Of a DNA stretch of 64,000 nt, positions 15,752-34,423 are shown one piece after another. Origin of the DNA: Acidobacteriota bacterium (GTDB taxonomy: Bacteria; Acidobacteriota; Aminicenantia; Aminicenantales; Saccharicenantaceae). Under the pieces are notes generated by a model. It had not been told where the DNA came from. It saw nothing but the letters and a program-made list of their open reading frames with translations, and searched no databases. Made by a program: the position numbers and the translations under genes. The first letter of the stretch is position 1, and every line of letters begins with the position of its first letter. The stretch spans positions 126,528-190,527 of the forward strand of contig JAKLEN010000004.1 in NCBI GenBank assembly GCA_022711665.1, in the 5' to 3' direction.

Positions 15752-16381
15752 TCAGCGGAATTCCGCGCTGACGATGGTGATGCGGCTGGGGTACGTGATC
15801 GGGCCCAGCGGGGTCGAGACGGTCGGCTGGGCGTCCAGGGCGATCCGGGCCGGCGTCCCGTTCCTTCCGCCGATGGCCAGGGCCAGGCCGATCAGGTCCT
15901 CATAGCGCCGGTCCCCGAAGAACTCCAGCAGATCGAGAGACAGCCGCAGCGGTATGACCGATTCCTTGCCGGTCCCCGGGATCTCGATGGGCCGATCGAT
16001 GTTGCCCGTGACCGTCGGCTTGTCGTCGATGAGCAGCCGGCATTCGAGCCCGGTCAGCGTGCTGGTGGAATTGCGGCTGCCGCCGGTCCCGTCGTTGGGG
16101 TTGACGGCCAGGACATCGACCACGAACTCGACCGGGAGCGTGCGGTTCCGGTAGGCTTGCAGGGCCCTGAGCCCGTCCGCGGCGCTGAAATCGCCGATCC
16201 TGGCTTTGCCGCCGAGGTCGAGGCCCAGGAGCTTGAAGTCGTGGACGCCGCCGAGCTTGAACTGGAGTTTCTTCAATGAGGCCAGGGCCGAAGCCATGTC
16301 CGTCAGGGCGGCGCAGGACGAGAGCGTCAGGAATCCGGCCAGGACCGCCCCCGCGGCCAGGCCTTTATGTTTCCAGGTCAT
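15752..16381 (-). CDS. LEA14/WHy-like lipoprotein
   Basis: A 209-residue predicted lipoprotein: signal segment about residues 5-20 and lipobox LSSC. The remainder resembles the LEA type 2 (water-stress and hypersensitive response) beta-sandwich, with alternating strands such as LPVEFVVDVLAVNPN and KESVIPLRLSLDLLEFF. Such lipoproteins occur in diderm bacteria with no defined biochemical role. ATG at 16381 with GAGAGGAG eight bases upstream is chosen over an in-frame GTG at 16387. Upstream is the non-coding repeat block. Confidence 0.65.
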   Translation of the reverse strand: MTWKHKGLAAGAVLAGFLTLSSCAALTDMASALASLKKLQFKLGGVHDFKLLGLDLGGKARIGDFSAADGLRALQAYRNRTLPVEFVVDVLAVNPNDGTGGSRNSTSTLTGLECRLLIDDKPTVTGNIDRPIEIPGTGKESVIPLRLSLDLLEFFGDRRYEDLIGLALAIGGRNGTPARIALDAQPTVSTPLGPITYPSRITIVSAEFR

Positions 16382-16466
16382 GGGCACTACTCCTCTCCGC
16401 TTCGTTCGCCCCGGTTATAGCGCCGGAGCGGCGCGTTGTCAAACGGACCGGGATAGGGCGAAAGGT

Positions 16467-16787
16467 TCTTCTCCCGATTCCGGGAGAATCCCTCTCTTCG
16501 GCTTGGCTCAGGGTATTGCCTCTTGCTCCCCGGCCGGCGCGTAGCGGACTCTTGGGAGCGGAGGTCAGGATCACGGCCGAGCGCTCGAGGCCGGGATCCT
16601 GAGAAATATCTTAAGAAAGCGCTTCCTCCCGATATCTCCCAGAAGCATGGCTCCGAGTCGCTCCGCCATGCTTCTGATGGTCGCTTCGGCGACTCCGCTC
16701 CCTGTCGGTCTCCCTCTCCGGCAACGGGGATCATCGAGGCAACACCCATCGCCGCCGCGAGAGGGAATCCCGGAAACGGGAGAAAAG
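16467..16787 (+). repeat. dispersed structured repeat, copy A (core 16532-16719)
   Basis: This block fills the 466-bp gap between two minus-strand genes; I see no credible gene in it. The core 16532-16719 matches 33021-33203 in the same orientation at roughly nine bases in ten by eye. It contains two stem-loops. The first has 14-base arms with one mismatch (16565-16578 with 16589-16602). The second has perfect 11-base arms CAGAAGCATGG/CCATGCTTCTG (16640-16650 with 16666-16676). The outer ends of copy A are inverted repeats of each other: TTCTCCCGATTCCGGGA near 16469 and its imperfect complement near 16765-16785. CCCTCTC-CGG motifs bracket the core on both sides. No transposase is present. It could be a miniature mobile element, a REP-like sequence or a small RNA family. 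Confidence 0.75.
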
Positions 16788-16789
16788 CT

Positions 16790-16827
16790 AAAAAAAAGCC
16801 CCGGAAGGGGCGGCCCTTCCGGGGCTT
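16790..16827 (-). terminator. intrinsic terminator of the pyruvate:ferredoxin oxidoreductase gene
   Basis: On the minus strand, a strong GC stem (AGCCCCGGAAGGG pairing with CCCTTCCGGGGCT, 4-base loop) is followed by eight T residues, 20 bases after the stop codon. This is a textbook Rho-independent terminator. Confidence 0.92.
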
Positions 16828-16847: not shown

Positions 16848-20366
<3,519 letters not shown>

Positions 20367-20389
20367 GTCCAACTCCTTCGTTATGGTCG

Positions 20390-30653: not shown

Positions 30654-31877
30654 ATGGACCGGTTCGAATGCCTGGCCTGCGGGCAGCTCGACACCCGCGA
30701 TTTTTATTCCCCGCTCTGCCCGGCCTGCGGCGAGCCGCTGTTCGTGGTCCCGGCTCCGCGGCCCGGCGGCCGGCGCATCCGGGAAGAGCGGGCCCTGGCC
30801 CTGGAGCGGTTCGCCGATTTCCTGCCACTCGAGCGCCTCGATCCGGCCCTGAGCCTGGGCGAGGGCTCGACGCCGCTCGTCCGCCTCGGGCGCCTGGGCC
30901 GCCGGCTCGGTCTCGACGGCCTCTTCGCCAAGAACGAAGCTCAGAACCCGACCGCGAGCTTCAAGGACCGGGGCACGGCCGTGGCCGTCCAGAAGGCCGC
31001 GGCCTTCGGCGCCGGGCGCATCGGCACGGTCTCGACCGGGAACATGGCCGCTTCGACCGCCGCCTACGGCGCCCGGGCCGGCCTGCAGACCTTCGTCCTG
31101 CTCAAGGAAGGAACCTCGCCGGCCGGCCTGCTCGGGGCCGGCGTCTATAAGCCTCACCTGGTCGCCGTGAGGGGCGATTACGGGGCCGTCTTCGAGGCCA
31201 GCCTGGCCATAGGCCGCAGGCTGGGCATCCCCTTCATGAATTCCATCGATCCCTATCGCCTCGAGGGCTACAAGCTGACCGCCTTCGAGATCTTCCTCCA
31301 GCTAGGCCGCCGGGCCCCGGACGCCGTCGTCGTTCCCCTGAGCTCGGGCGGGCACCTGCTGGGCCTGATGCGCGGCTTCGCCGATCTCGAGCGCGAGGGC
31401 CTCATCGCGACCTTCCCCCAGATCGTCGGCGTCCAGGCCGAGCCCTGCTCCCCTCTCGTCCGAGCTTTCGAGCGCGGCCTCCCCCGCTGGGAACGGATCG
31501 ACGCGGGTCCGACCAGGGCCCACGCCATCGCCAATCCCGCGCCGCCCGGCGGCAACGCCGTGCTCCGGCTCATCCGCGAGCGCGACGGCCTGTTGGCGGC
31601 CGTCTCCGACGAGGACATGTTCGAGGCCCAGGCTGAGCTGGCCGCGGGGGAAGGGCTGTTCTGCCAGCCGGAATCGGCGACGACGCTGGCGGCGGTCAAA
31701 AAACTGGCAGCAGCCGGCCGTCTCCGGCTCGGCGGCGGCGGGACCGTGCTCGTCCTGACCGGGCAGGGGCTGAAGACGATGCACTTGCTCGATCCGGCCC
31801 GCGTCGCCATCCAACGCCTGGACCTGGGCGGGCTCGAAGAGGGCCTGGCCCGGCTCTGCCGGCCTAGGGCTTCTTGA
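30654..31877 (+). CDS. thrC: threonine synthase
   Basis: A 407-residue PLP enzyme converting O-phosphohomoserine to threonine. An N-terminal zinc-ribbon-like region (CLACG about residues 6-10 and CPACG about 22-26) precedes the catalytic fold, as in many archaeal and bacterial short ThrC. The PLP Lys is in NPTASFKDRG, the phosphate loop is SSGGH, and the ligand region VSTGNMAAS is typical. AAGGAG sits eight bases before the ATG. It overlaps the convergent desulfhydrase gene by 14 nt at the 3' ends. Confidence 0.92.
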   Translation: MDRFECLACGQLDTRDFYSPLCPACGEPLFVVPAPRPGGRRIREERALALERFADFLPLERLDPALSLGEGSTPLVRLGRLGRRLGLDGLFAKNEAQNPTASFKDRGTAVAVQKAAAFGAGRIGTVSTGNMAASTAAYGARAGLQTFVLLKEGTSPAGLLGAGVYKPHLVAVRGDYGAVFEASLAIGRRLGIPFMNSIDPYRLEGYKLTAFEIFLQLGRRAPDAVVVPLSSGGHLLGLMRGFADLEREGLIATFPQIVGVQAEPCSPLVRAFERGLPRWERIDAGPTRAHAIANPAPPGGNAVLRLIRERDGLLAAVSDEDMFEAQAELAAGEGLFCQPESATTLAAVKKLAAAGRLRLGGGGTVLVLTGQGLKTMHLLDPARVAIQRLDLGGLEEGLARLCRPRAS

Positions 31878-32940
31878 CCAGGAAGTTGAAGAGCCGCTCC
31901 CGGTTCGGGAAGAGGGCCGGCGTGCCGCCGGTGTGCAGGAACAGGATCTTGTCGGTCGGCTTGAAGAACCCCGTCTTGATCAGGTCGAGCAGGCCGACCA
32001 TGGCCTTGGCCGTATAGACCGGATCGAGGACGATGCCCTCGGTCTGGAAGACGAGCCGGATGGTCTCGGCCACGGTCCTGTCGACGACGCCGTAGCCCTC
32101 GCCCAGGTACTCGTCGAAAACGACGACGTCCTCGGCCCTGATCCCCAGGCCCAGCCCAAGGGCCTCGTCGGCGGCCCGCCCGATCTCCAGAACGTCGTCG
32201 GAGAAAGGCCCCTTAGGGTCCGAAACGCTGATGCCGATGATGCGGCAGCCGGCGCTCAGGGCCTGGGCCCCGACGACCAGCCCGGCCTGCGTTCCGCCGG
32301 ATCCCGTGGCGTGGATGACGTAATCGGGCTCCAGGCCCAGGCCACGGGTCTGTTCTAGAAGCTCGGCGAAAGCGGCGACATAGCTGATGGCGCCGAGGGG
32401 CTTGTCCATGTCCCCCCGGACGAGGGAGCCGCCGACGGGCACGAGGTAAGGCCGTTGGCCCTGAGCCCTGACCTCGCGGCCGGCCTCGTCGAGGACCTCC
32501 ATGGCCTGGGCGGACTTGACGACCTTGCCCCGATCGGACTCCAGGATGCGGAGATCGGCGTCGAGCAGGACGTCGAGCAGGACGTTGCCGTCGGCGGTGG
32601 CCGCGGTCTCGGCCGGCTTGAATAGCATCAGGATTGGCTTGAGGCCGAAGCTCCGGGCCGCGGCGGCCGTCTGCATGCACCAGTTGGACTGCAGGCTCCC
32701 CCAGGTGATGACCACGTCGGCCTTCTTGACCAGCATGTCGCTGATGATGAACTCGAGCTTCCTCGACTTGTTGCCGCCGAAGGCCAGTCCGGTCAGGTCG
32801 TCGCGCTTGATGAAGATCTCCGGGCCGCCCAAGCGGGCCGAGAGACGGTCGAGCTTGCGGACGGGGGTCGGGCGGCTGATGATCTCCACCCGCGGGAACC
32901 GTTCGATGCGGTCAAGGACGTCCGGGACCTTGTACGGCAT
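31864..32940 (-). CDS. D-cysteine desulfhydrase / ACC deaminase family PLP enzyme
   Basis: A 358-residue fold type II PLP enzyme of the D-cysteine desulfhydrase/1-aminocyclopropane-1-carboxylate deaminase family. The PLP Lys is in FGGNKSRKLEF (about residue 55), followed by WGSLQSNWCMQTAAAA, the ATGSGGTQAG phosphate loop and the C-terminal LHTGGTPALF. D-cysteine desulfhydrase is the more common activity; the two cannot be separated by eye. ATG at 32940 has GGAGG six bases upstream. The frame stays open upstream through repeat copy B to 33156, but that would add 72 residues encoded by the repeat and is rejected. Confidence 0.85.
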   Translation of the reverse strand: MPYKVPDVLDRIERFPRVEIISRPTPVRKLDRLSARLGGPEIFIKRDDLTGLAFGGNKSRKLEFIISDMLVKKADVVITWGSLQSNWCMQTAAAARSFGLKPILMLFKPAETAATADGNVLLDVLLDADLRILESDRGKVVKSAQAMEVLDEAGREVRAQGQRPYLVPVGGSLVRGDMDKPLGAISYVAAFAELLEQTRGLGLEPDYVIHATGSGGTQAGLVVGAQALSAGCRIIGISVSDPKGPFSDDVLEIGRAADEALGLGLGIRAEDVVVFDEYLGEGYGVVDRTVAETIRLVFQTEGIVLDPVYTAKAMVGLLDLIKTGFFKPTDKILFLHTGGTPALFPNRERLFNFLVKKP

Positions 32941-32988
32941 GGGCCACCTCCGCCCGCTAGCGTAGCAGATAAGCCCCTCAATAAAAAG

Positions 32989-33208
32989 GCTCTTCTCCCG
33001 ATCCCGGGAACCCTCTCTCGGGCCGGCGCGTAACGGACTCTTGGGAGCGGAGGTCAGGATCACGGCCGAGCACTCGAGGCCGGGATCCTGAGAAACCTTT
33101 AGAAAGCGCTTTCTCCCGATATTTCCCAGAAGCATGGCTCCGGGTCGCTCCGCCATGCTTCTGATGGTCGCTTCGCCTACTCTGCTCCCTGCCGGTCCCT
33201 CTCTCGGG
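32989..33208 (+). repeat. dispersed structured repeat, copy B (core 33021-33203)
   Basis: This is the second copy of the element at 16532-16719, in the same orientation. It conserves both stem-loops: 33054-33067 with 33078-33091, and the perfect 11-base pair CAGAAGCATGG/CCATGCTTCTG at 33127-33137 with 33153-33163. Differences are scattered and include two 2-base indels. A perfect 12-base direct repeat CCCTCTCTCGGG (33011-33022 and 33197-33208) brackets the core. Like copy A it sits between the end of one minus-strand gene and the start of the next. The gap contains no other feature. Confidence 0.75.
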
Positions 33209-33246
33209 CTATATCTCGGGGATGTCCTCCGGCTCCCCGGCCCAGC

Positions 33247-34368
33247 TCAGCCCTCGGTCGTTCTATAGACGACGTTGCGGGCCGCCAGGTCGGCCATGAC
33301 CGCCCGGAAAACGCTTTCATCGGCGCCGAGGAGCTCGGGCGGCAGGACGCCCTTCTGCGGCACCCTGCCGGCCAGCACCAGGCGGGCCACGGCAGCGGCC
33401 GGGAAGCCGGTCGTCCGGGCCATCGAGGAGAAGCCCGTCCGGCGGTCTCGCCGGTCGAACAGGTCGTACTGGACGCGCCGGGGGCTGTCCCCGGCCAGGC
33501 CCTCGACGACGATGCGCATGACGGTGAACTCGTCATCCTTCTCATGCAGATGCCAGTGCTTGAACAGGACGGCCGACGTGACGTCGAGGGGCCGGACCTT
33601 GGCCCCTCGGACGTCGATCTCCCGGACGGCGAAGAAGCCGCTGTCCCGCAGGACCCGGATGTGCTCGACATGGCCCGGGTAACGCAGGGTCTTCTCGATC
33701 ATGTTCGGCACCTTCATCGTCGTGAGCAGGGACCTCAGTCCGTCGGAGTTGAAGGCCTCGAGCGTGCCGATCTCCGGGAAATCCATGTGCTCGACGTCCG
33801 AAAGGGCGGGCTTGACGACGAGATGGCCGTTCTCGACGTAGCGGGCCGGCCGGGTGTACTCCTCGATGACGTCGGCCGGAGAGAACGGGGCTTTGTACTC
33901 GAACGGGAACTCGCGGCGGAAAGGCAGGCCGCCGACGTAGCAGGCGAACCGCCGGACCGTCATGCGGGCGGCCTCGTGGCCGAGGATCATATTGTCCATC
34001 CCCGGGGCGACGCCGCAGTCTACGACGGCCGTGACCCCGGCCCCCCGGGCGGCATCATCCAGGGCCAGGGCGTCCTCCGGAAAGAACGAGATGTCCACGG
34101 CGTTCTTGCCCGCGGCGATCGTCTCGCGCAGCGTGGCGAAGCCCAGGGAACCGGGGACCGCCCCGACGACGAGGTCGGCGTCCTCGATGACGCTCCGCAC
34201 GGCGGCCGCCGACGCCAGGTCGGCCTGGACAGGCTTGACGGCCGTGCCCTCGAGCCTGGCCAGGTTGGCCCGGCTGACGTCGACGGACTCGACGCGGTAC
34301 TCGGCGGCGAGATCGAGGGCGATGACGCGGCCGACCATCCCGGCTCCCAGAACAACGACCTTTTTCAT
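33247..34368 (-). CDS. saccharopine dehydrogenase-family oxidoreductase
   Basis: A 373-residue NAD(P)-dependent enzyme with Rossmann motif VVLGAGMVG at the N-terminus and the saccharopine-dehydrogenase C-terminal domain (VDCGVAPGMDNMILG... to GFPAAAVARLVL). Relatives include lysine 6-dehydrogenase, saccharopine dehydrogenase and carboxynorspermidine synthase; the single-domain length and the CGVAPGM motif best fit the lysine 6-dehydrogenase-like branch, but the substrate is not certain. ATG at 34368 has AAGGAG five bases upstream. Promoter at 34395-34423. Confidence 0.8.
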   Translation of the reverse strand: MKKVVVLGAGMVGRVIALDLAAEYRVESVDVSRANLARLEGTAVKPVQADLASAAAVRSVIEDADLVVGAVPGSLGFATLRETIAAGKNAVDISFFPEDALALDDAARGAGVTAVVDCGVAPGMDNMILGHEAARMTVRRFACYVGGLPFRREFPFEYKAPFSPADVIEEYTRPARYVENGHLVVKPALSDVEHMDFPEIGTLEAFNSDGLRSLLTTMKVPNMIEKTLRYPGHVEHIRVLRDSGFFAVREIDVRGAKVRPLDVTSAVLFKHWHLHEKDDEFTVMRIVVEGLAGDSPRRVQYDLFDRRDRRTGFSSMARTTGFPAAAVARLVLAGRVPQKGVLPPELLGADESVFRAVMADLAARNVVYRTTEG

Positions 34369-34394
34369 GATGTCTCCTTTGCGGCGGAATAGCA

Positions 34395-34423
34395 TTTATA
34401 GCCCAGGCCGGGCCGATTTTCAA
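34395..34423 (-). promoter_or_regulatory. promoter for the saccharopine dehydrogenase-like gene
   Basis: Minus strand: TTGAAA (34418-34423), 17-base spacer, TATAAA (34395-34400), about 25 bases before the start codon. Confidence 0.65.

Follow-up and report, generated by a model that had tools for sequence, protein, structure and literature searches.

Miniature transposons of bacteria are generally viewed as reduced derivatives of a single parent. Insertion sequences of the ISL3 family have ends starting with GG(C/T)TCTT and generate 8-bp A/T-rich target duplications, and the MITEs derived from them share these ends and duplications, are non-coding and are found in many copies. REPINs and BIMEs, which go together with RAYT, are dispersed intergenic units made of paired inverted hairpins, and compensatory changes have also been reported for REPIN spacers (PMC3116915). 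An ISL3 element with 8-bp duplications has been described (PMC12554700). The CIR repeats of Caulobacter and Brucella are approximately 110 bp long and intergenic, with two hairpin arms and a linker (PMC2229807). NEMIS/Correia and RUP elements are non-autonomous and foldable, with IS-like ends and many intergenic copies; the majority fold by pairing one end with the other, and the target of RUP is TA (review, PMC2229807).

The repeat family described here comes from a stretch of 64,000 nucleotides (the window) of a Candidatus Aminicenantes genome. It is like the ISL3-derived MITEs in its GG(C/T)TCTT ends, its 8-bp A/T-rich duplications, its apparently non-coding nature and its many copies. Unlike them, it carries an exchangeable and structurally constrained hairpin cassette, and no ISL3 transposase (PF01610) was found in the source genome, which is 95% complete. 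Paired inverted hairpins and dispersed intergenic copies are shared with REPINs and BIMEs, and in relatives the hairpin module lies between RAYT-associated REP ends. However, the copies in the window have ISL3-type ends and 8-bp duplications, and the hairpins of the module are 36-37 nt long, their loop being conserved and their stem free to vary. The CIR repeats have the same two-arm hairpin layout, are likewise intergenic and resemble some copies in the GANTC motif of the loop, but the module described here sits in a transposon shell. Membership of CIR was rejected because GANTC in the loop is not conserved (loop B contains GAGTC in 34 of 77 copies and GAGCC in 23). The likeness to NEMIS/Correia and RUP, as drawn from descriptions, lies in the lack of autonomy, the IS-like ends, the many intergenic copies and the foldability; the end-to-end mode of folding and the TA target of RUP are differences. 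A search of the literature for such an element in Aminicenantes, or for an ISL3 MITE of this type, returned nothing relevant.

We interpret the repeat as a non-autonomous ISL3-type miniature transposon carrying an exchangeable hairpin cassette that is shared with REPIN shells, and give this explanation as a whole a probability of roughly 0.7. What the data show directly is the repeat family with its ends and its 8-bp duplications, one site lacking the element, the constraint on structure and a second kind of shell. The shell family is ordinary; the unusual part is the structure-constrained cassette that it shares with REPINs. One such cassette is common to shells with unrelated ends in at least 12 species of an uncultured genus, and the role of hairpins in such elements, whether in mobility, host tolerance or regulation, becomes testable.

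A repeat family with two copies in the window

The window corresponds to G000:C8:126528-190527 of the source genome (G000, 3.25 Mb in 13 contigs). Two stretches match in the same orientation, 16526-16606 with 33015-33095 (81 bp at 95% identity) and 16603-16722 with 33090-33209 (120 bp at 88% identity), a similarity far beyond chance. These are the two copies, alike at about nine in ten bases, that had been proposed in a sequence-only reading of the same DNA. Both stem-loops are intact in the copies at 16.5 and 33.0 kb, and so is the perfect 11-base stem CAGAAGCATGG/CCATGCTTCTG noted in that reading, which becomes 12 bp long when the closing C-G is included. Each copy also lies, as had been claimed, between consecutive minus-strand genes. 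Copy 1 is flanked by an unnamed ORF (15755-16387, minus strand) and a PFOR gene (16851-20372, minus strand), and copy 2 by genes for a PLP-dependent enzyme (31867-32940, minus strand) and a saccharopine dehydrogenase-like protein (33250-34395, minus strand).

A genome-wide count of copies, which the sequence-only reading had put forward as a check, gave approximately 40 separate places in the source genome by nucleotide search (E down to 1e-133). This is far more than two, and a simple duplication is thereby ruled out. Several contig ends (on C2, C5, C6, C8, C9 and C12) lie within about 300 bp of the end of an element; the assembly breaks at the family, and the count is therefore a lower bound. 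Most of the aligned copies are longer than 190 bp and are bounded by GGTTCTTCTCCCGATTCCGGGAGAATCCCTCTC and its complement. The interval first reported (16532-16719) thus holds the inner module but not the whole repeat, which in copy 1 runs from 16464 to 16789.

Copy 1 is a miniature inverted-repeat element of 326 bp (16464-16789, plus strand) with paired inverted ends and an empty site in a relative. Its left terminal inverted repeat, GGTTCTTCTCCCGATTCCGGGAGAATCCCTCTC (16464-16496, plus strand), has no mismatches to a 22-base end pattern, and the right one (16757-16789, minus strand, ending in GGGAGAAAAGCT) has a degenerate tip and two mismatches. The left 8-bp flank GGGCGAAA (16456-16463) is a decayed target duplication matching the right flank at 3 of 8 positions. 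The right flank AAAAAAAA (16790-16797) is the target itself, the T8 tract of the intrinsic terminator of the PFOR gene (hairpin and T8, 16790-16827, minus strand), whose T-tract side folds at -26.3 kcal/mol, compared with -14.8 kcal/mol when shuffled. An orthologous site without the element, for which the sequence-only reading had suggested looking, was found in G009 (L226), where the DNA reads CCGAACGGCGCC AAAAAAAA GGCCCCGGAAGGAGGTCCTTCCGGGGCC and, around the tract, CGGCGCC AAAAAAAA GGCCCCGG; this empty site is an intrinsic terminator with its T-tract. The border of copy 1 coincides exactly with the A8 of the terminator tract. In a relative (G002), an element is found at the same T-tract with the module in the opposite orientation, which points either to two separate hits on the site or to an inversion of the module.

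Copy 2 (32988-33246, plus strand, the right-hand coordinate being approximate) retains the left inverted end, GGCTCTTCTCCCGATCCCGGGA at G000:C8:159515, and the module, with hairpin A at 33055-33090 and hairpin B at 33127-33163 (both plus strand). A search with the end pattern found no right-hand partner, and homology to relatives resumes near 33247-33254, to the right of the copy. The genes on either side of copy 2 are 270 bp apart in the window but 2.9 kb apart in G012 and G002, where they enclose a gene of some 930 codons that looks like one for a BNR-repeat protein (L291, L292). The simplest reading is that a deletion of approximately 2.6 kb beside copy 2 accounts for the absent gene.

The shell and its link to ISL3

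The inverted ends of the family are 33 bp long and start with GG(C/T)TCTTCTCCC. With up to three mismatches, the end pattern gave 112 + 114 matches, as opposed to 68 + 50 for a reversed control, and 51 places were perfect among the matches listed. Target duplication was assessed on the 37 delimited elements of the source genome that have both ends, compared with flanks whose partners had been shuffled. The 8-bp flanks were identical at a mean of 5.24 of 8 positions, against 2.97 after shuffling, and none of 10000 shuffles reached the observed value. Moreover, the excess is maximal at exactly 8 bp (z = 8.3), and A/T-richness is confined to those 8 positions and does not extend to neighbouring ones. 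Perfect duplications include TTACTTAA (L080) and TTTTTCTT (L031).

An ISL3 transposase in the same order (L051; NF033550, E = 1.7e-71) is directly followed by ATGGGAGAAGAACC, i.e. the inverted end GGTTCTTCTCCCATTT, which is identical to the element ends at 16 of 16 positions, a match that concerns one end of a transposon cut off by its contig. Ends of the GATCATCTCCCGATTAG type occur at L057, and L052 has perfect ends with TTTTAATT flanking on both sides. An ISL3 transposase is present in 21 of 60 relatives. Within the genus one occurs only in G006, where the end differs (GGTTCTTCAGACG). The shell therefore has the ends and the 8-bp A/T-rich duplications of ISL3 MITEs and has no autonomous partner in the same genome; the latter bears on present activity and is not a defining feature of descent. 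The descent of the shell from an ordinary kind of ISL3-type miniature transposon family, and its mobility, are well supported.

A strong hairpin stands on the T-tract side of 9 of 29 elements and on the other side of 2 of 29 (p = 0.04). With a Wilcoxon test, p is 0.09. The evidence for an insertion preference for terminators is weak but suggestive. In L023, L018 and L038, a head-to-tail pair of elements is separated by just 6-8 bp, which looks like insertion of one element into the duplicated target of its neighbour.

Structural constraint on the twin hairpin

The module reported earlier (16532-16708, plus strand; DNA fold z = -3.5) recurs in copies from the source genome and from relatives. 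It is near-palindromic, leading from hairpin A through an AAATATC...GATATTT centre to hairpin B. Hairpin A (16566-16601, plus strand; helix 1) consists of CAG, a variable stem, the loop GGCCGAGYRCTCGAGGCC, the variable stem again and CTG. The centre (16602-16639, plus strand; helix 2) is an imperfect palindrome, AAATATC ... GATATYT, with a variable middle. Hairpin B (16640-16676, plus strand; helix 3) repeats the layout of hairpin A around the loop CTCCGAGYCGCTCCG.

Covariation was assessed on 77 copies picked by sequence alone, an earlier pairing-dependent extraction being kept out. Overall, 92.5% of cells are paired, compared with 34-40% when the partners are slid, and double changes occur in 19 of 32 pairs (210 such cells, against 61 when shuffled). 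The two hairpins carry this signal: double changes are found in 7 of 12 pairs of helix 1 (92.3% of cells paired) and in 11 of 12 pairs of helix 3 (95.8%). In helix 2, 87.9% of cells are paired and covariation is almost nil. Variation in stem B is threefold that in the loop (1.0 vs 0.33 bits), with stem variants such as AAGCATGG, CACCGCTC, CAACGCCC and AAGTGCGG around a largely unchanged CTCCGAGYCGCTCCG. Across species, the CAG/CTG bases, AAATATC and the loops are conserved and the stems change. These data support a structural constraint on the module, in which pairing is kept while the sequence of the stems changes, in 12 of the 13 species of the genus.

Changes in the stems come in complementary pairs, and differences in the length of the centre from copy to copy are not confined to multiples of three; both tend to speak against coding, in line with the view taken in the sequence-only reading. 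No Rfam family matched the element at its gathering score, and none convincingly at E <= 1, and a known RNA family was ruled out on this ground. In 21 elements of the source genome, divergence from the consensus is lower in the stems than in the inverted ends (8.1% vs 14.4%, p = 2e-6), which is only suggestive of constraint beyond mobility, as the copies were found partly by their core and may be biased towards conserved stems.

An exchangeable cassette

The X-Y shells of the source genome contain the module in plus orientation (12), the module in minus orientation (9), a GGAACC hairpin (9) or none of these (2). A second kind of shell is found in G012 and other species, where AAGAAGGGGTCAAACCTAC ends enclose the module, whole or halved. 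RAYT genes in L211, L220 and L212 are likewise flanked by the GGGGTCAAACCT portion of such ends, and the L220 protein resembles a REP-associated tyrosine transposase (E = 3.5e-18, which is under the curated cut-off of the model). Junctions between REP and module number 30, in 9 of the 13 genomes of the genus, against none in the control; RAYT genes are present in 10 of the 13. An exact GGGGTCAAACCTAC junction was not found in the source genome, where the single candidate has two mismatches and is doubtful. Ends identical to the REPs that flank RAYT genes were found on copies in other species (e.g. L258), whereas the copies in the window have ISL3-type ends. The module is thus common to shells of unrelated mobilisation type, ISL3-type and REPIN.

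The REPIN family with AAGAAGGGGTCAAACCTAC ends is found beside RAYT genes of the genus and, in several species, contains whole or half twin-hairpin modules (L260 at 915-965, L251, L258, L119, L211 and L220); L260 has a REPIN without a module. In the source genome, a RAYT-like gene (L214, G000:C10:30400-32900) lies between inverted GGGACACAATACTGTGTCCC hairpins that belong to a separate REP family. A RAYT of the source genome was rejected as owner of the module hairpins, the flanking hairpin of L214 being different and the L213 locus showing none.

Mode of action and alternative explanations

An RNA made from a single transcribed strand should favour G-U. Departures inferred on the tree comprise 16 G-T and 7 A-C events in helix A, and 8 G-T and 15 A-C events in helix B, or 24 against 22 for both helices together. 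That the two helices lean in opposite directions is weakly significant (p = 0.04) and would not be expected on a simple DNA-only reading, against which it counts. With G-T and A-C equal overall and the module present either way round in its shell, we read the constraint as probably acting on DNA hairpins or on both strands. That the cassette acts at the DNA level, mainly as folded DNA, is more tentative, its chances being slightly short of even. Roles in mRNA have been proposed for such hairpins in NEMIS/Correia and REP/BIME, and the twin hairpin could be a structured RNA, produced by read-through or from its own promoter, that binds a protein, or stabilises or processes mRNA. Such an RNA would be in keeping with the compensatory changes around conserved loops, which mark a structure under selection, with the very stable folding of the complete element as RNA from either strand (z = -9.1 and -11.5) and with the intergenic places of the module beside genes; it is nevertheless unlikely, given the equality of G-T (G-U) and A-C events, the near strand-symmetry of a module found in both orientations, the position of some copies beyond terminators and the lack of an Rfam match. 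The earlier suggestion of selection on RNA or on mobility, not on coding, therefore survives in part. Mobility is borne out by the 40 or so copies, the inverted ends, the 8-bp duplications and the empty orthologous site, and conserved structure by strong compensatory change and conserved loops in the sequence-chosen copies; the balance of departures, the symmetry and the two orientations speak against selection on RNA specifically.

Pairing could also persist with no selection on it, if template switching in quasi-palindromes kept the arms identical and the copies were mobile debris. Arm-to-arm copying would indeed give what is seen in 46 double events, from Watson-Crick to Watson-Crick with few intermediates, but it leaves unexplained why the loops, CAG/CTG and AAATATC are conserved across species, and in the source genome divergence is lower in the stems than in the inverted ends, subject to a possible bias from core-based copy finding; we regard this explanation as quite improbable. 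Little credence is likewise given to a module that is itself mobilised by RAYT (HUH) as a BIME- or REPIN-like inverted hairpin pair and was inserted into ISL3-type shells. At L214 the hairpin flanking the RAYT-like gene is unrelated and L213 lacks one, an exact REP-module junction is missing from the source genome and no GTAG-type tag was seen by eye at the module ends, against which must be set the inverted hairpin pair with conserved caps, the full or half modules enclosed by REP ends that are the same as those beside RAYT genes, and the frequency of RAYT genes in the genus.

On the explanation preferred here, an ISL3-family (DDE) transposase acting in trans, no longer found in the source genome, would have recognised the GG(C/T)TCTTCTCCC ends and placed the element in 8-bp stretches of A/T, which were duplicated in the process. 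T-tracts of intrinsic terminators are among these targets. A terminator may survive insertion because the T-tract itself is duplicated, which would make it a safe harbour, where the element can insert and termination still works. The shell carries an exchangeable inner cassette, of which the reported 190 bp is one, with two divergent hairpins around AAATATC...GATATTT whose stems could take any sequence provided that pairing is kept. As a cruciform or as a pair of single-strand hairpins, the cassette may present its loops to a host or element protein, and we infer that it would help the element to persist or spread in either shell, ISL3-type or REPIN. A bolder proposal, which we think less likely than not, would make the twin hairpin a mobile cassette in its own right, with a structure recognised by the host. 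Within one genus it may have passed between two kinds of miniature transposon that are unrelated in mechanism, the DDE-type ISL3 MITEs and the HUH-type REPINs, and selection for the shape and loop of the hairpins, not for stem sequence, would have maintained it.

Distribution of the module

A covariance model of the twin hairpin (R1), the construction of which had been advised in the sequence-only reading, matches the module in 12 of the 13 genomes of the genus. Of 81 genomes of the order outside the genus, G090, which belongs to another family, is the only one with matches, two in number and weak (E = 2e-5). A scan of 84,980 species with a 35-base pattern returned only records titled Candidatus Aminicenantes or Acidobacteria MAGs. 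Within G003, the module is found in a third kind of surrounding (L129, L139 and L150), with CGTCTCCGTCCGCTGCGGTGATTCTTAACGCC sequences common to the copies.
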